From positions 1 to 31,985 of the IMG/VR virus record IMGVR_UViG_3300031825_000055: a DNA stretch of 31,985 nt; one strand, 5' to 3'. A program made the translations under genes and the position numbers. The notes beneath the pieces are model-generated. The model searched no databases and was not told the DNA's origin. It saw only the letters and a list, made by a program, of their open reading frames with translations. The DNA comes from a virus. Within the stretch, counting starts at the first letter, position 1; every line of letters begins with the position of its first letter. Shown here piece by piece: positions 25,367 through 31,985 of this stretch.

Positions 25367-26108
25367 CGGGAATCTGCCTGTGAAGGGCGTCAACAAGGCT
25401 GCGGAGGTTCTTGGCTGGGCGATGGGGCGGCGCACGCTGCGTCGAGCGGTCGGACAGAACGCGGGTGATGTAGGGGATGGGGTCGCCAGAGCCGTGAACC
25501 TGGGCTTCGTTGATCGCCCACAGGACGCGGCCGGCGTCGCTGCCGGTGTCCTTCAGCCACTTGCCGACCATGGAACGTGCCTTAGGCGGGACGACGTGCA
25601 TCGTCTCAAGCGCAAGGATTCCGTCTGTCCAAAGCTGATCGACGAGAGAAACGGCAGGCGCGTCGCCACCAGCGTTAGCTGGTGGTTCTTGTTTGGATCT
25701 GGCTTCTGGCTTCTGGGCTTTATCCTCAGGGTTATCCGGGGGGTTAACCCCCTTTTTCAAAGAGGGATTACCGCCCTTGCCACCATTTGCCTTATCCTTG
25801 GCCTCTTTCTCTGTGTCTGCCTTCATGCGTCGGCTGAAGATCAGACCGTCTTCCCCGCGGCTCAGAACGCCGGCCTCGGTCAGCTCTGCGAGCAGGACCT
25901 TGGCATCATCGGCACCGCAGCCGGCAAGGGCTGCCATCTGACCGACCGTCAAAGCCTTGCCGTTGACGAGCAGATAACCGCGCGGGGTCGCCTCGTGCAT
26001 GAGGCACAGCATTTCCATCCAGAGACCCCGCGCAGCGAGGGAGCACATGCGAAGCGCCGGGTCAGCGCGCCAGTCGGAAGGGTAGAATTTGAGCCAGGGG
26101 GCGCTCAT
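25317..26108 (-). CDS. replication initiation-like protein with DUF1376/winged-helix N-terminus, 263 aa
   Basis: Start at 26108 (MSAPWLKFYPSDWRADPALRMCSL) has an ATGA overlap with the HNH gene. The opening PWLKFYPSDWRADPALRMCSLAARGLWMEMLCLMHEA is the pattern of DUF1376-type proteins, typically fused to or next to phage replication proteins; a winged-helix region follows (LTVGQMAALAGCGADDAKVLLAELTEAGVLSR). The middle is a Lys/Gly/Pro-rich linker, and the C-terminal part (VPPKARSMVGKWLKDTGSDAGRVLWAINEAQ ... DPIPYITRVL) resembles a replisome-organiser C-terminal module. It probably binds the origin and recruits host replication proteins. Confidence 0.7.
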   Translation of the reverse strand: MSAPWLKFYPSDWRADPALRMCSLAARGLWMEMLCLMHEATPRGYLLVNGKALTVGQMAALAGCGADDAKVLLAELTEAGVLSRGEDGLIFSRRMKADTEKEAKDKANGGKGGNPSLKKGVNPPDNPEDKAQKPEARSKQEPPANAGGDAPAVSLVDQLWTDGILALETMHVVPPKARSMVGKWLKDTGSDAGRVLWAINEAQVHGSGDPIPYITRVLSDRSTQRAPPHRPAKNLRSLVDALHRQIPDEQPDQQNFPRLAFGG

Positions 26109-26545
26109 CGATACCTCCCGCGCCATTCGGACAGCAGGCGATCCCCCTTGCTCGAATTGCAGGGCTTGCAGGCAACGCAGAGATTTGCGGGCTCATTCGA
26201 GCCACCGCGCGTCACTGGGACGATATGGTCGACTTCAAACGGGCCGTCCTCGTCCTTGCAATATGTGCAGATGTGCCCATCGCGGCGGAGGATAGCCCCC
26301 CGCAGTTGCCACCACTCCTTCTCGTGTAGGCGCGGGGTCCAGCCTGACGGGTCATTCCGTGGGGTGTATGGCTTCGGCGAGTTACCCGAATGCCTCAGTC
26401 TGGCCTTCTCATTGAAAAGCCCCTCGGCAGTCATGAACTTGACGATGAAAGGCGCAATATCTGTATTTTGACCGCCGCACATACGGCAGATATCCAGCAG
26501 GTCCATCGCATCTATGAACGGCTCTGACGAGGTGATGCTGGTCAT
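26105..26545 (-). CDS. HNH endonuclease, 146 aa
   Basis: Zinc-supported HNH nuclease: CTYC at 93-96, EVDHIVPVTRGG (D106-H107), NLCVACKPCNSSKGDR (N121, C123, C126, N130). This is the McrA-like core, in the last 60 residues. The N-terminal half has an additional CRMCGG and no recognised fold. It lies between RusA and the replication protein, in an ATGA-coupled series, and might process replication or packaging intermediates, or be a homing enzyme. A nuclease role is clear; substrate unknown. Confidence 0.85.
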   Translation of the reverse strand: MTSITSSEPFIDAMDLLDICRMCGGQNTDIAPFIVKFMTAEGLFNEKARLRHSGNSPKPYTPRNDPSGWTPRLHEKEWWQLRGAILRRDGHICTYCKDEDGPFEVDHIVPVTRGGSNEPANLCVACKPCNSSKGDRLLSEWRGRYR

Positions 26546-26913
26546 GCTGCCTCCTTCGCCTCATAGACGAAGACGCGGCACATGCCCTTGGCGATGTCGG
26601 CAGAGCGGGTGATGCTGGCGCCGTGGGCGTGCTTGTCGTTCTCGATGATGCCGGCGGTGGCCAGGAAATCGAGAAGCGGCTTCACGCGGTTGTCGATGTC
26701 GCCGCGCATCTTCAGGGCGACGGCGATCTGAGCGTCGAAGGCTCCCGAGAAGAACGGGAACCCGCCGGCCGGCTTCTGCGTCCAGAGGCTCGCCAAGGCT
26801 GCCTTGCGCCAGTCCCGGTATTTCGGGTTGAGATATGTCTTGCCGGTCTTCGTCGTCCGCCAGATGCGGTTTGCGGAGATCGGCAAAGGGAGATCGAGCT
26901 TGACGACCTTCAT
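26542..26913 (-). CDS. rusA: RusA-family Holliday junction resolvase, 123 aa
   Basis: Resolves four-way DNA junctions formed in replication and recombination. The diagnostic motif GDIDNRVKPLLDFLATAG, ending IIENDK, places D72, D74, K78 and D93 in the spacing of E. coli RusA D70, D72, K76 and D91. The N-terminal LPLPISANRIWRTTKTGKTYLN also fits the family, which uses a short beta/alpha dimer fold of about 120 residues. It is ATGA-coupled to the HNH gene and to the upstream HTH protein. Confidence 0.9.
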   Translation of the reverse strand: MKVVKLDLPLPISANRIWRTTKTGKTYLNPKYRDWRKAALASLWTQKPAGGFPFFSGAFDAQIAVALKMRGDIDNRVKPLLDFLATAGIIENDKHAHGASITRSADIAKGMCRVFVYEAKEAA

Positions 26914-27212
26914 TGCCCGCGCTCCCGATCTCTTCCGCGAGCGAGCGCGTTGGCAGCGACCGCTTGTGTTGTCATCAGACGCGCGGCAATGCTGAACGTG
27001 TCGAGTCCGCTGCGGTAGAGCCGCAACACGGCGTTCTCGTCGACCATGCGTGGCTTGGGCTGGCCGTGTGGACGCCGCAACTCGACGCCCTCTTTCCTCG
27101 CAATATCACTGACGGATGTCGATCCGATGCCGTGTTCAAAGGCGATGACCTTCACTGGCATTCCGGCCTCATAGGCGCGGGCAACCGATCTCCGGGCGTC
27201 TGCGCTTAGCAT
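26910..27212 (-). CDS. HTH-type small DNA-binding protein, 100 aa
   Basis: Contains a helix-turn-helix-like N-terminal half: LSADARRSVARAYEAGMPVKVIAFEHGIGSTSVSDIARKEGVEL, with the turn at about residues 24-34 and a basic end. The second half, VLRLYRSGLDTFSIAARLMTTQAVAANALARGRDRE, repeats a similar pattern, suggesting two HTH units. Probably a regulator; target unknown. Start ATG at 27212 overlaps the stop of the GcrA-like gene. Confidence 0.7.
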   Translation of the reverse strand: MLSADARRSVARAYEAGMPVKVIAFEHGIGSTSVSDIARKEGVELRRPHGQPKPRMVDENAVLRLYRSGLDTFSIAARLMTTQAVAANALARGRDRERGQ

Positions 27213-27706
27213 CAGGCAGCCCTCCGGAACTTGAAGATGCCGAGCTCCTTGTCGAGGCTGTCAGTCCGGCGCGGTTGGTAGCTCAGGGCCGAGCAATGGG
27301 CGCAGTAGACCGAGCCCTCTGCCGTAACGGCGCCGCAATAGCGCTTGTCGGACGGGGCGGTATCAGCGCGCCAGAGAGGCCACCTGCAGGTGTCGGCGCT
27401 GAGGTCCATGAGCGTAATGCCGATCGACAGGTACGGGACGACCACAACCGGCTCGACAGATGCCAGCTTCACAAGCTTCGGCGCGATGGCATGCCGAACC
27501 ATGGGCCGCTTCACGACCGCTACCGGGCGCACATAGCTATGAGCGGCCTGCGCGCACAGATTGATCCCGCGACGCGAGCAGCGGCCGATAACGGCATTGC
27601 GGGAGACGCCTAGCTTCTCGCCTATCTGGCTCGCGGTGAATTGCGAAGCCATGTCAGCTAGTTCGGTGTCAGTGACAAAACGCCAGTCGAAGGGCTTTGC
27701 AACCAT
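27212..27706 (-). CDS. GcrA-family cell-cycle regulator homologue, 164 aa
   Basis: GcrA in Caulobacter is a transcription cofactor that binds sigma70 RNA polymerase and methylated GANTC sites. Here the N-terminal helix-turn-helix is clear: TDTELADMASQFTASQIGEKLGVSRNAVIGRCSRRGINL (12-50). The C-terminal GcrA signature is also present: LMDLSADTCRWPLW (99-112), YCG (123-125), YCAHCSALSYQPR (134-146). The linker between is Pro/Val-rich. Phage GcrA copies are known in alphaproteobacterial phages. It stands in the early operon beside the DnaA-like gene and may redirect host RNA polymerase during infection. Confidence 0.85.
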   Translation of the reverse strand: MVAKPFDWRFVTDTELADMASQFTASQIGEKLGVSRNAVIGRCSRRGINLCAQAAHSYVRPVAVVKRPMVRHAIAPKLVKLASVEPVVVVPYLSIGITLMDLSADTCRWPLWRADTAPSDKRYCGAVTAEGSVYCAHCSALSYQPRRTDSLDKELGIFKFRRAA

Positions 27707-28086
27707 TACCGCGCCTCCTCTCGGCTACGAATAACCTTGCGCTTGCGGCAGAAAGCCAAGTTGCGAGCTTTCTGCGCCGCTGGGATGTTCCCGAGTTTTC
27801 GGACGTTCTCTCCAGTCGCCTCGTTATGCCGGCGAATGGAATGGATGACCGAGGTGTGGGCCCTGCCGAGGAAACGGCCCATCGCGGAAAGAGTGAGGCC
27901 AGTCTCTTTGGCGATCAGCCAAATTGCTTCTGACCTGCAATCGACAATGTGCTTGTCTCTCCGAGCGCTGAGAACGCTCTCCTCACTGAGGCCATAGCGC
28001 TCGCAAGTTTCGCGTAGAATCCGGCGAGCAGTGGGGAGATAGAACCTCTTTTGGGGTTCTTCCTGGGTGGATTCGATGATGGTCAT
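27706..28086 (-). CDS. stand-alone DnaA domain IV-like DNA-binding protein, 126 aa
   Basis: Residues about 20-90 match the helix-turn-helix that DnaA uses to bind DnaA boxes: CERYGLSEESVLSARRDKHIVDCRSEAIWLIAKETGLTLSAMGRFLGRAHTSVIHSIRRHNE. The GRAHTSVIHSI segment (74-84) stands for the DnaA signature GGRDHTTVLHA. No AAA+ domain is present, so it cannot act as an initiator ATPase. It could occupy DnaA boxes at a phage or host origin, or act as a repressor. It sits directly after the 144-aa gene and before the GcrA-like gene. Confidence 0.85.
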   Translation of the reverse strand: MTIIESTQEEPQKRFYLPTARRILRETCERYGLSEESVLSARRDKHIVDCRSEAIWLIAKETGLTLSAMGRFLGRAHTSVIHSIRRHNEATGENVRKLGNIPAAQKARNLAFCRKRKVIRSREEAR

Positions 28087-28089
28087 GGC

Positions 28090-28524
28090 TTACGCCTCCC
28101 CAGCATCAGCAGCGAAATCCCTTGCCCGCTTAGCCATCCTCCTAAGGCGATCAACTTCCGCCCGGTTGCCGTCAGGATCGACGCTAGCCAGACGGGCCGC
28201 GTAGAGTTCCATCGTGTTTGCATGCTGGTGCATCTCTCTGGTGATGATGCGCTCTGCGATCTTGGCGCGAGCGGCTTCCAAGGCGTGGATCTCGTCAGCC
28301 AGAACCGCACGGGCTTCCTTGTTCCAAAGAGCGCGGGCGCGGCGGGCATTGATGCCGATGAAGGCAGCCGCCCGAGGCAGAGCCGACTTGAGCGGGAGCT
28401 GAGGCGCGACGAACTGGAGCACCGCTCCGATGTGGGCGCGTGCTTGGATCGCGATTGTCATGTCAGGCTTACTCGACTGGTGGGTCTTGGCTCGGTCAGC
28501 CAAGCGGTTGGTATGGAACTCCAT
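28090..28524 (-). CDS. hypothetical helical protein, 144 aa
   Basis: Start at 28524 has AAGGA 9 nt upstream; an internal M at codon 22 is less well supported. The protein has a hydrophobic-helical part (IGAVLQFVAPQLPLKSALPRAAAFIGINARRARALW) resembling a helix-turn-helix, then charged helices (LEAARAKIAERIITREMHQHANTMELYAARL, VDRLRRMAKRARDFAADAGEA). It is the first gene after the terminator at 28651-28675 and so the first gene of the second leftward block. Function unknown. Confidence 0.6.
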   Translation of the reverse strand: MEFHTNRLADRAKTHQSSKPDMTIAIQARAHIGAVLQFVAPQLPLKSALPRAAAFIGINARRARALWNKEARAVLADEIHALEAARAKIAERIITREMHQHANTMELYAARLASVDPDGNRAEVDRLRRMAKRARDFAADAGEA

Positions 28525-28732
28525 GATTCAGGTCCTTCGATCCGTGACGTTGATGGCGTCGCGGCCAGAAGGAACGGGAGTGCATGGAGCGGTTGGACGA
28601 AGTCATGGCGCGGGTTTTGGCGAACGTGCGCGTCACGATGGAAGAAAGGGCTCGGGAGGCGCGAAGCCTCCCGAGCGAGGCGGCGCGGGCTGGGGGAGGA
28701 GCACAAGCCCCCGCGCTGGCTAGGGGTGATAT
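28525..28732 (-). other. 208-nt intergenic region with terminator
   Basis: Frames exist on both strands here (an Arg/Pro-rich one on the minus strand from 28736, another on the plus strand from 28584), but both read straight through a strong hairpin and have poor codon composition. I regard the region as non-coding: it ends the upstream transcript and should carry a promoter for the 28524 gene, for which no convincing -35/-10 pair is visible. Confidence 0.45.
28651..28675 (-). terminator. intrinsic terminator of the first leftward operon
   Basis: A perfect 10-bp stem CTCGGGAGGC / GCCTCCCGAG with a 5-nt loop (TTCGC on the minus strand), followed on the minus strand by CCCTTTCTTCC. The strongest perfect stem in the early region. 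It lies 57 nt past the stop of the 32-aa membrane protein. Confidence 0.65.
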
Positions 28733-28831
28733 TCATCCGCGCAACTCCCAAAGGAGCATCGCGAAGTACGCGCACACAGCGAGCGTCAAGAGAGAGACGC
28801 CGTAGCCGATGAGGCGGTCGGAGAAGCTCAT
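28733..28831 (-). CDS. tiny membrane protein, 32 aa
   Basis: ATG at 28831 lies 2 nt after the stop of the preceding tiny gene. The peptide begins MSFSDRLIGYG and has one strong hydrophobic helix (VSLLTLAVCAYFAMLLW) with a charged end. Its tight spacing to the neighbouring membrane peptide suggests the two work together. Function unknown. Confidence 0.5.
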   Translation of the reverse strand: MSFSDRLIGYGVSLLTLAVCAYFAMLLWELRG

Positions 28832-28833
28832 GG

Positions 28834-28917
28834 TCAGCCATCACCGCCAACCGCGACGAGGGACCAGGCGAAGAAAGTTCCACCTAACCAGATGGCAATG
28901 ATGCAGAGAGCCGTCAT
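28834..28917 (-). CDS. tiny membrane protein, 27 aa
   Basis: ATG at 28917 directly follows the MT-A70 stop (TAGATG). The peptide MTALCIIAIWLGG continues as a single hydrophobic helix (TFFAWSLVAVGG). Its first four codons (MTAL) are identical to those of the MT-A70 gene because both lie in a 24-bp direct repeat. Function unknown. Confidence 0.45.
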   Translation of the reverse strand: MTALCIIAIWLGGTFFAWSLVAVGGDG

Positions 28918-28929
28918 CTACGCAGCCTC
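28906..28929. repeat. 24-bp direct repeat, left copy (end of MT-A70 gene)
   Basis: An exact copy of the sequence at 29449-29472. On the minus strand it encodes Glu-Ala-Ala-stop-Met-Thr-Ala-Leu, thus covering the end of one gene and the beginning of the next. The two copies lie 543 bp apart and bracket the MT-A70 gene. Confidence 0.8.
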
Positions 28930-29460
28930 ATCGAATTTGGTTGCTTGGTCGCCCCAACTCGACCATCCCGCGCGGGATTGGCGCGCGAACAATTCGAGGT
29001 AGGGGCCGCCACAAAGAGCCTCGATGCGCTCGTATTGCTCATCAGGCTTCCGGCTATGCTCGCGACGTGGTGCCGTGATCTTCTGACGGACACCCTTGCT
29101 CAACCGCGCAGGCTTCCCGCGCTTGAAGAGGTGGCAGACCTCGACCTCCTGCCGGGTCCAGTAGCCCATGCCCATGCGGCCTTTGTCCCAGACGAACGCC
29201 ACAGAGACAGGCTTGAACCCCCATGCCGCCGCGACCTCGTAGGCGGCTGCCTGAAGGTGAGAAACAGACCACATGAAGAGCAGGCAGTCTTTTGCGGCGG
29301 CGCTCTCGACCGGCAGCGCCTTGATGTCATCGAGAGACATCACGGCATACGGGCCGGTGGACTTCCGAGTAGGAGCGGTGTCCTTGCCGCTGTAGGTTCG
29401 GAAGGACCAAGGTGGGTCAGCAAGGATGGCGCCGAAATTCCCGCTCGGGAGAGCCGTCAT
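28918..29460 (-). CDS. MT-A70-family adenine DNA methyltransferase, 180 aa
   Basis: Transfers methyl from S-adenosylmethionine to N6 of adenine. The catalytic DPPW is at 15-18 (FGAILADPPWSF), followed by YAVMSLDDIKALPV, CLLFMWSVSHLQAAAYEVAAAWGFKPVSVAFVWDK, the substrate-region MGYWTRQEVEVCHLFKRGKP, and the C-terminal PDEQYERIEALCGGPYLELFARQSRAGWSSWGDQ. The length and order are those of small phage MT-A70 (Ime4-like) enzymes. It may protect phage DNA from restriction or mark sites for regulators. It is bounded by 24-bp direct repeats, suggesting that it is a removable cassette. The start directly follows the GapR-like stop (TAGATG). Confidence 0.9.
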   Translation of the reverse strand: MTALPSGNFGAILADPPWSFRTYSGKDTAPTRKSTGPYAVMSLDDIKALPVESAAAKDCLLFMWSVSHLQAAAYEVAAAWGFKPVSVAFVWDKGRMGMGYWTRQEVEVCHLFKRGKPARLSKGVRQKITAPRREHSRKPDEQYERIEALCGGPYLELFARQSRAGWSSWGDQATKFDEAA

Positions 29461-29472
29461 CTACGCAGCCTC
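29449..29472. repeat. 24-bp direct repeat, right copy (GapR-like/MT-A70 junction)
   Basis: Identical to 28906-28929. It spans the end of the GapR-like gene (EAA-stop) and the start of the MT-A70 gene (MTAL). Recombination between the copies would delete the methyltransferase exactly and leave intact stop/start codons. Confidence 0.8.
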
Positions 29473-29787
29473 CTCTGTGATTGGCGCGGGGGCTCTCACC
29501 CCGCTCCCGGCTTCGGCCCCGGATGTCATGGGTTCGCGCGCGTCCCGCGTGTGTGCACGCGAGGCGCTGGCGATTTCCTGCTCGTAAAGGTCGACGATGG
29601 CCTCGAACTCGGAGCGCTCGGACGGGTCTTTCGCCCGGCGCTTTACCAGCTCGCGAATGGCTTTGGTGTCGTAGCCGTTGGCCTTGGCCTCGGCGTACAC
29701 CTCCTTGGCGTCGCTTTCGATTGCGCGCTTTTCCTCGTGGAGGCGCTCGATGCGCTCGATGATGGAGAGGAGTTGCTGGCCTGACAT
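29461..29787 (-). CDS. GapR-like (DUF2312) nucleoid protein, 108 aa
   Basis: GapR of Caulobacter binds overtwisted AT-rich DNA ahead of replication forks and aids topoisomerases. The first 75 residues carry the family pattern: LLSIIERIERLHEEKRAIESDAKEVYAEAKANGYDTKAIRELVKRRAKDPSERSEFEAIVDLYEQ, with the conserved KEVYAEAKANG(Y/F)DTK and basic KRRAKD. The C-terminal 33 residues are a Pro/Ala/Thr-rich extension beyond the normal length. The gene is coupled to the Cro-like gene (TAATG). A phage copy could assist phage replication or compete with the host protein. Confidence 0.85.
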   Translation of the reverse strand: MSGQQLLSIIERIERLHEEKRAIESDAKEVYAEAKANGYDTKAIRELVKRRAKDPSERSEFEAIVDLYEQEIASASRAHTRDAREPMTSGAEAGSGVRAPAPITEEAA

Positions 29788-30020
29788 TACGCTGCCCTCC
29801 CTTCGGAAGGCTTTGCGATGGGCGCGAAGAAGTCCTCAGCCTTGAGCTTCAGACCCTTTTGACGTGCGGAGGCCCTGATGCGGTCCAGCTCAAGCAAGCT
29901 CGGTGCGAGTATTCCTGTCTCCCAGCGGGAGACGGTCGCTTGAGTGACGCCTGCAATCTCCCCGAACTTTGCCTGGGAAACGCGAAAGAGCGTCTTACGG
30001 ATGCGTCGGACATTGTTCAT
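29787..30020 (-). CDS. Cro-like HTH repressor, 77 aa
   Basis: An XRE-family helix-turn-helix: VRRIRKTLFRVSQAKFGEIAGVTQATVSRWETGILAPSLLELDRIR; the core SQAKFGEIAGVTQATVSRWE is standard. The remaining 30 residues are basic and short. The ATG at 30020 is chosen because it lies 7-8 nt past the -10 region, so the mRNA would be leaderless; ATGs at 30026 and 30032 would lie within the promoter. It faces the S24 repressor divergently across a shared control region, exactly the Cro position. Confidence 0.8.
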   Translation of the reverse strand: MNNVRRIRKTLFRVSQAKFGEIAGVTQATVSRWETGILAPSLLELDRIRASARQKGLKLKAEDFFAPIAKPSEGRAA

Positions 30021-30027
30021 GCGCATG

Positions 30028-30057
30028 AGCATATGCGCAGATGCATATCTTCGTCAA
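30028..30057 (-). promoter_or_regulatory. leftward early promoter with embedded operator
   Basis: On the minus strand TTGACG (30057-30052), a 3-nt gap, then an 18-bp palindrome (plus-strand 30031-30048) of form ATATGC-N6-GCATAT whose end merges with a -10 (TATGCT or CATATG). A repressor bound here would cover the spacer and the -10. An identical 18-bp palindrome lies at 30840-30857. Confidence 0.75.
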
Positions 30058-30064
30058 GCGCTGC

Positions 30065-30095
30065 CGCATACGGTGTTTATGCGTTGCGGTATAAT
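30065..30095 (+). promoter_or_regulatory. repressor promoter and second inverted repeat
   Basis: A perfect TATAAT at 30090-30095 lies 6 nt before the repressor ATG at 30102. Upstream is CGCATA-N7-TATGCG (30065-30083), an inverted repeat over the expected -35 region, where no consensus hexamer is seen. The transcript would be leaderless and could be autoregulated or activated by repressor or Cro binding. Confidence 0.65.
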
Positions 30096-30101
30096 CAACC
30101 T

Positions 30102-30737
30102 ATGCTGACAGTTGACGACATCAGACGCGCGCTCGCGATCTACGGCAACCGACAAAAGGCTCTCGCCTATGCGGTTGGCGTCGAACAATCGACGGTTTCA
30201 AGGTGGATTAACAAGGGCGTGATCCCTGATCCCCAACAGCAAGCGAAGATCCGTGAAATTCTCGCGGAAGACGGCAGCGATCGTTTACCTATTCCAATTC
30301 CAATGACGAACGACCACGCTAGCCCTCCACGGCAGGCGGTGTTCGGGACCAACGATCTTCCTGTCTACGCTGCCGTCGAAGGAGGTCCGGGGGAATTGGT
30401 TATCTCAACTGAACCGATTGAATACGTCGCGAGGCCTTGGTACCTCGGCCAGGTCAAGGACGGTTTCGGGGTGATCGTCGTCGGGGAATCGATGAGTCCC
30501 GCCTACAATCCCGGCGAGATGGCTATTGTCCATCCCAAGCTGCCGCCACTCATAGGCAAGACGCACATCTTCTCGCAAGAAGCCGAAGATGGGCAGTTCA
30601 GGGGCTCTATTAAGAAGCTCGTCGGCCAGACGGCCACGGAATGGAAGGTCGAGCAATACAACCCCGCCAGGACGTTCACCCTGTCCAAGGCGGAGTGGCC
30701 TAAGGCCGTCCGCGTAGTCGGCAAATACGAGGGCTAA
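30102..30737 (+). CDS. CI-like repressor with S24 peptidase domain, 211 aa
   Basis: Maintains lysogeny. The N-terminus is a helix-turn-helix DNA-binding domain: IRRALAIYGNRQKALAYAVGVEQSTVSRWINKGVIPD (7-43). The C-terminal half (about 85-205) is a LexA/S24 domain: VVGESMSPAYNPGEMAIVHP with the Ser130 nucleophile candidate, and FRGSIKKLV with Lys171/172 as general base. A clear Ala-Gly cleavage dipeptide is not evident in the segment VYAAVEGGPGE (88-98), so self-cleavage on DNA damage is uncertain. It is divergent to the Cro-like gene. Start is chosen from the TATAAT spacing. Confidence 0.85.
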   Translation: MLTVDDIRRALAIYGNRQKALAYAVGVEQSTVSRWINKGVIPDPQQQAKIREILAEDGSDRLPIPIPMTNDHASPPRQAVFGTNDLPVYAAVEGGPGELVISTEPIEYVARPWYLGQVKDGFGVIVVGESMSPAYNPGEMAIVHPKLPPLIGKTHIFSQEAEDGQFRGSIKKLVGQTATEWKVEQYNPARTFTLSKAEWPKAVRVVGKYEG

Positions 30738-30805
30738 AGCCCCGAATCATCCCCTTTTGGATTGACGCAATGCGGCAATGCAGTCAGATGCATCGCAGCA
30801 ACTAA

Positions 30806-30823
30806 ATATGCACGTCTGCATTT
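30806..30823 (+). promoter_or_regulatory. imperfect operator-like palindrome
   Basis: ATATGC-N6-GCATTT differs from the perfect operator by one base in its half-sites. It lies 34 bp (centre to centre) upstream of the operator at 30840-30857. Such spacing would allow cooperative binding by two repressor dimers. Confidence 0.5.
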
Positions 30824-30830
30824 TCATGGC

Positions 30831-30860
30831 TTGACGTGCATATGCATCTGCGCATATTCT
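30831..30860 (+). promoter_or_regulatory. rightward early promoter with embedded operator
   Basis: TTGACG (30831-30836), three bases, then the palindrome 30840-30857 identical to that of the leftward promoter, ending in a -10 (TATTCT or CATATT). It should drive the gene at 30888 and the following repeat-protein gene, under the same repressor as the leftward operon. Confidence 0.75.
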
Positions 30861-30887
30861 CTCCCTACACCAACGGGAGAGACGGCC

Positions 30888-31334
30888 ATGCCCACCACGC
30901 AAATCGAAAAGCTCCTGCCCAAGGCGATGTACCGCTACTGGTCCGCTGAGGGCGGCACGGTCGAAGGCGTCAAGGCGGTTCTGGCTCTCGCGCTCGGCGT
31001 CAAGCCGAAGACCGCGATGGTCCCCTCGCAGATCGTCTCATTCGAGATCGAGGACTGTGAGCTGAACGTCGGCCCGGTCGCGCTCTGCGCTGCCTGGAGC
31101 CTCGCCATCGAAGGTGACGGGCACGAGTTCGAAATCACTCACGTCTGGGTCGAGGGAAAGCGCGCCGACGATTTCGAGCGCTCTTTGGCTCAGCGCTGGT
31201 TCGATGGCGATCTGGCGACGGGTAAGCTGTCCCGCGTTCGCAAAGCCTATTCCAACCACCTCGCAGACCGCACGCCGGACGATGATGCCGATGACCGCGG
31301 CTGCCATCAGTTCCACCAGTCGAGGGCTGCATAA
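30888..31334 (+). CDS. early rightward hypothetical protein, 148 aa
   Basis: Start at 30888 (MPTTQIEKLLPKAMYRYW) follows the promoter at 30831-30860 and a GGGAGAGA site. The product has a helical N-terminus, then GVKPKTAMVPSQIVSFEIEDCELNVGPVALCAAWSLAIEG, and an acidic C-terminal tail (ADRTPDDDADDRG). No catalytic motif is visible. It is directly adjacent to the repeat-protein gene (TAAATG), suggesting functional or regulatory linkage. Function unknown. Confidence 0.7.
   Translation: MPTTQIEKLLPKAMYRYWSAEGGTVEGVKAVLALALGVKPKTAMVPSQIVSFEIEDCELNVGPVALCAAWSLAIEGDGHEFEITHVWVEGKRADDFERSLAQRWFDGDLATGKLSRVRKAYSNHLADRTPDDDADDRGCHQFHQSRAA

Positions 31335-31985
<651 letters not shown>

Follow-up and report, generated by a model that had tools for sequence, protein, structure and literature searches.

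A predicted phage immunity region with one operator type in the early promoters on both sides of a CI/LexA-fold repressor gene

Does one repressor control both early promoters of the phage represented by this DNA? The window, by which we mean the whole stretch analyzed, comprises the 31,985 bases of an IMG/VR virus record for which the host is not given. For the locus near its right end, we computed the operator sites, their promoter context, the fold of the repressor, the conservation of the geometry, and the match between operator and recognition helix.

Paired palindromes and predicted promoters

An 18-bp palindrome of the pattern ATATGC-N6-GCATAT is found at 30031–30048 on the minus strand (main right operator, OR1-like; ATATGCGCAGATGCATAT) and at 30840–30857 on the plus strand (main left operator), and both copies read ATATGCATCTGCGCATAT along their own promoter. 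The sequence-only reading had described the copies as identical in matching orientation, each standing 3 nt after a TTGACG and running into a −10 box, and we could verify position, sequence, orientation, and promoter context: on the minus strand, TTGACG (30057–30052) and AAG precede the operator, and on the plus strand, TTGACG (30831–30836) and TGC. The predicted leftward early promoter PR (30028–30057, minus strand) joins its −35 box TTGACG across an 18-nt spacer to the −10 box TATGCT (30033–30028), which merges with the operator; the predicted rightward early promoter, equivalent to PL (30831–30860, plus strand), has as its −10 box either TATTCT (30855–30860, 18-nt spacer) or CATATT (16-nt spacer). 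Both have weak −10 boxes (9/12 matches). A promoter scan of 26000–31985 returned just these two loci (three matches, two of them overlapping, with 1.1 expected), and both layouts recur in relatives.

The earlier inventory of operators was right about the two main sites but had missed one at 30806–30823 and two weak candidates between 30054 and 30094. The former, the second left operator (ATATGCACGTCTGCATTT, plus strand), has one mismatch and lies upstream of the rightward −35 box. The weak OR2-like candidate (30054–30071, no strand assigned, centered at −39.5 from the repressor ATG; TCAAGCGCTGCCGCATAC) reaches 0.23 of the maximum score (shuffle P = 0.06), and the OR3-like candidate (30077–30094, no strand assigned, centered at −16.5; TTATGCGTTGCGGTATAA), which overlaps the −10 box of the repressor promoter, reaches 0.42 (shuffle P = 0.004); in each case 0 of 13 foreign operators reach that value, and from the main right operator at −62.5 the centers advance in 23-bp steps. 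The left side has two clear operators, and the right side has one clear operator and two weak candidates. No further exact copy of the pattern exists in the whole 32-kb record, and the exact 18-mer was not found in other viral contigs. A second palindrome, CGCATA-N7-TATGCG (30065–30083), has its half-sites in reverse order relative to the operator and covers the −35 region of the repressor promoter. The distance from the main right to the main left operator (OR–OL) is 809 bp; we found no fixed OR–OL helical phase (Rayleigh P = 0.40), so the closeness of 809 bp to 77 turns gives no evidence for looping.

The pair could in principle be a short duplicated palindrome without function, as any exact repeated 18-mer arose in 18 of 100 simulated windows and identity alone is thus weak evidence. 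The repeat is, however, palindromic, lies in the spacers of both promoters, flanks one repressor gene, and has its geometry repeated in relatives, and we regard chance as extremely improbable. Paired palindromes flanking one repressor gene as strong as those of the window were produced by none of 60 dinucleotide shuffles and by none of 96 replacements with flanks swapped in from other loci. Scored with an operator-class matrix, built from sequences that include the window's own three sites, the main sites reach 28.6 and 28.5 and the site at 30806–30823 reaches 21.3, against 15.1 for the best of 60 simulated windows.

The repressor and the neighboring operons

The gene between the two promoters (30102–30737, plus strand) encodes a protein of 211 amino acids with an N-terminal helix-turn-helix (HTH), whose recognition helix reads VEQSTVSRW, and a C-terminal domain of S24/LexA type with Ser130 and Lys171. 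It matches the PHROG transcriptional repressor family phrog_4 (E = 2e-16), and its Pfam S24 and HTH matches fall below the curated cut-offs; sequence searches found no close relatives of the protein, and no solved structure matched it by sequence. The structure model (pLDDT 86) has the cleavable fragment of lambda CI, a lambda–186 hybrid repressor, and LexA as its best PDB matches, with the DNA-binding domain of P22 C2 ranked lower. As judged from model and sequence, the product is a phage repressor of the CI/LexA fold (S24). Of the Ser–Lys catalytic dyad, Ser130 is present in 31 of 31 sequences and Lys171 in 28. An Ala–Gly (or Cys–Gly) self-cleavage site is absent: residues 90–98 read Glu–Gly (AAVEGGPGE) in the alignment, and across the 31 sequences Gln or Glu predominates at the position preceding the presumed cleavage glycine, with V, R, M, and L also present and Ala in 3. 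For this reason we term the protein a CI/LexA-fold repressor and not a proven self-cleaving one; the departure is relevant to induction and not to operator binding.

The −10 box of the repressor promoter, TATAAT (30090–30095, plus strand), ends 6 nt before the ATG. The start codons of the Cro-like and repressor genes both lie about 6 to 7 nt after a −10 box (30020–30033 and 30090–30104), so both mRNAs may be leaderless, and that of the repressor probably is; short leaders are seen in relatives too.

To the left of PR, an operon of Cro-like, GapR, and MT-A70 genes had been proposed, and the profile matches agree with it. The operon comprises genes for a Cro-like HTH protein (29787–30020, minus strand; start probably the ATG at 30020), a GapR-like DNA-binding protein (29461–29787, minus strand; PF10073, E = 3.8e-26), and an MT-A70-type methyltransferase (28918–29460, minus strand; PF05063, E = 1.6e-23). 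A perfect 24-bp direct repeat, GAGAGCCGTCATCTACGCAGCCTC (28906–28929 and 29449–29472), overlaps both ends of the methyltransferase gene, and its copies are 543 bp apart, exactly the gene's length; this spacing and overlap suggest modular insertion or exchange of the gene. Over 27212–29787, the leftward early operon holds GapR-, GcrA-, and DnaA-C-terminal-like genes together with the MT-A70 methyltransferase, a set reminiscent of parts of the alphaproteobacterial cell-cycle circuit, and the GapR-, GcrA-, and DnaA-like genes and the relatives indicate that the host is probably an alphaproteobacterium. The larger genes down to about position 374, including those for the terminase, portal, and major head protein, are mostly leftward. 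The rightward operon begins with a gene for 148 amino acids (30888–31334, plus strand), for which relative searches found no informative relatives. The start of the next gene, encoding an SQVX-repeat protein (31335–31985, plus strand), adjoins the preceding stop, and the gene extends beyond the window end. Its repeats are encoded by approximately 34 copies of the 12-bp unit CGGGTCGCAGGT (93% match; 31574–31982), truncated by the window end, and the 79 residues before them had no match in the phage collection.

Geometry and operator type among relatives

We compared the window with nine annotated records plus another 55 loci, searching the region before each repressor start and the region after its stop for paired palindromes. 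The diversity of a broad alignment, A1, made it unsuitable for scanning, and it was dropped. Strong pairs were found in the window and in L006, L010, L013/L035, L024, L029, L033, L034, L036, L037, and L045, and over half the loci retrieved gave no convincing pair. These relatives are distant, comprise phages and prophages, are mainly alphaproteobacterial, and have operators that differ widely in sequence (e.g., AATGGGACCATTCCCATT, ATAGGACTATTCCTAT, and CGTATTTAATTACG). Relative to the repressor ATG, the upstream operator has its center at about −64 to −70 in at least 10 relatives with different operators, a spread somewhat flattered by the choice of start codons, several of which were picked by hand and a few adjusted after the first pass. 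The downstream operator lies approximately 40 to 150 bp past the repressor stop in most relatives and approximately 270 to 310 bp past it in two. In the 12 loci whose promoters were set side by side, the main operator directly follows TTGAC in 22 of 24 promoters, the other two reading TTGC, and the gap between TTGAC and operator is longer in PR of phage 16-3 than in the other loci. The best pair in phage 16-3 coincides with the annotated operators; 3 of 60 shuffles and 12 of 96 swaps score equally high, so the pair is not significant alone and serves as a consistency check, not as proof of sensitivity.

When each locus was scored with its own operator and with operators of other classes, the own operator showed an excess at centers −61 to −70 (P = 9e-5), −38 to −48 (P = 0.003), and −14 to −22 (P = 0.02), values that are not independent confirmation because the ranges were picked after viewing the same loci; the same scoring gave no excess at three control positions. 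Because weaker sites of the locus's own type also occur near −44 and −18 in relatives, the right operator appears similar to the OR1–OR2–OR3 of lambda, with weak versions in the window. There seems to be more than one operator per promoter, a three-site array on the right and at least two sites on the left.

Operator similarity tracks the N-terminal domain of the repressor given the C-terminal domain (partial Mantel r = 0.28, P = 0.0005, 38 loci; the P value is optimistic because the loci are related), and the predicted operator sequence follows the DNA-binding domain of the repressor. This bears on whether a host regulator, and not a phage protein, recognizes the site. Many host factors bind palindromes of this general kind, but at fixed positions the operator differs between phages, following the DNA-binding domain of the phage repressor, and the pattern is not repeated exactly elsewhere in the record; a host regulator is highly improbable.

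Scanning viral contigs operator first, with TTGAC-N2to7-TATGC-N6-GCATA, gave at least 123 sites. A stricter HTH pattern, which excluded the commonest helix context, gave almost no matches, and a looser one was adopted after that result. The commonest spacing was 4, with 68 sites among the matches listed, 53 of them close to a gene whose product has a Q-S-T-x-S-R-like helix, compared with 23% for random positions in the same loci; 48 of these 53 come from a single lineage of repressors (GVPQSTLSR; PrtR-type as judged by relatives). Among the matches listed, such a helix gene was near none of 37 sites with spacings of 2, 6, or 7 and near 10 of 33 with the window's exact spacing, which is not clearly above the background. 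By eye, about six lineages among the matches listed appear independent. The window's operator, including its center, recurs in L195 and L196 with one end base changed, and unrelated phages whose QSTLSR or QSTISR repressors have a long C-terminal domain carry an adjacent operator of the window's type; unrelated phages sharing the Q-S-T-x-S-R helix share the predicted operator. A broader proposal is that operators keep fixed positions (approximately −66, −44, and −18, plus a site past the gene end), that their sequence varies with the helix, and that the pairing of ATATGC with Q-S-T-x-S-R in unrelated phages creates cross-immunity at the promoter level. We advance it tentatively, with the balance of judgment somewhat against it; if true, the window's repressor would bind operators of quite different phages.

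A proposed immunity switch and its known counterparts

On these sequence comparisons, we think it very probable that the locus is a temperate-phage immunity region organized and working like that of lambda, with the repressor acting on ATATGC-N6-GCATAT to control both early promoters. That one repressor serves both, as had been proposed, is most likely: a CI-type gene lies between promoters with the same operator, the geometry recurs in relatives, and the operator type follows the DNA-binding domain. We infer binding, repression, autoregulation, Cro competition, and lysogeny along the following lines. A dimer of the 211-aa repressor would bind the palindrome, and because the spacer is occupied by the operator, which also runs into the −10 box, dimers would obstruct RNA polymerase at each early promoter. 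The right-side site would occlude the leftward promoter of the Cro-like, GapR, and MT-A70 genes and the genes beyond, and the main left site and its neighboring variant would occlude the rightward promoter, which lies just beyond the repressor gene; a lysogen would keep both early operons silent. Transcription of the repressor gene itself is probably tuned by the weaker sites that lie between its ATG and the main right operator, and the candidate over TATAAT could limit repressor synthesis.

The Cro-like protein probably competes for the same sites, as suggested by its recognition helix, VTQATVSRW, which is nearly identical to VEQSTVSRW of the repressor. Its resemblance to QSTVSR would also suit palindromes that are primarily Cro sites, with the Cro-like protein as the main binder and the CI-type repressor recognizing something else, as would L122 and L177, where the operator directly precedes a Cro-like QSTVSR gene. 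Across relatives, however, operator type tracks the N-terminal domain of the repressor, the paired sites flank the repressor gene, and the operator of the unrelated phages adjoins QSTLSR/QSTISR repressors with a long C-terminal domain. We judge primary use by Cro improbable, and sites shared by the repressor and the Cro-like protein are more likely than sites exclusive to Cro.

The sequence-only reading had set the locus apart from lambda by the position of the second early promoter downstream of the repressor gene. This contrast fails, as lambda has cI and rexAB between OR and OL with PL beyond (PMC3708714), and the annotation of phage 16-3 shows this order too. Control by a single repressor of the CI/LexA fold, encoded between two operator regions, remains the preferred reading and is lambda-like in these respects, as are the three right-operator positions about 22 to 26 bp apart in the best-resolved relatives. 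The window differs from lambda in having no rexAB, in its OR–OL distance (809 bp versus 2.3 kb), in the weakness of its OR2- and OR3-like candidates, and in the Glu before the presumed cleavage glycine, where lambda CI has Ala. L195 and L196 differ from the window in having an extra gene between the repressor gene and the OL-like site; this small gene reads as a lipoprotein and occupies the position of lambda rexAB.

Phages with PrtR-type, QSTLSR, or QSTISR repressors have nearly the window's operator, in a TTGAC promoter beyond the repressor gene. The nearest named record of the commonest operator-first group is Pseudomonas prtR; the PrtR type differs in being a separate repressor lineage and in a TTGAC spacing mostly one nucleotide shorter than the window's. 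No description of this operator class was found in the literature searched, mainly open-access papers. With this analysis, what began as a guess from sequence becomes a testable immunity-switch assignment for a phage not otherwise described. It also yields operator sequences for some dozen more phages and prophages and provides natural data for relating residues of the recognition helix to the operator bases they read; the general view of how temperate phages are controlled stays as it was.

The closest counterpart in layout is immC of Rhizobium phage 16-3 (C repressor; OR1, OR2, and PR; OL1, OL2, and PL), which has the gene order of lambda without rex and shares gene order and directions with the window: a leftward operator promoter, a rightward repressor gene, and a second operator pair with a rightward promoter just beyond. 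Its C repressor is homologous to that of the window (29.7% identity), and 6 nt separate the −10 box from the ATG both in Pc of 16-3 and in the window's repressor promoter. The operators differ, being of ACAA...TTGT type in 16-3 and ATATGC-N6-GCATAT here, as do the neighboring genes. With its repressor gene flanked by two predicted operator-bearing early promoters, the far one in the direction of the repressor, the window has an immC-like layout; the kind of system is already known, and the operator sequence and the phage are new examples of it.
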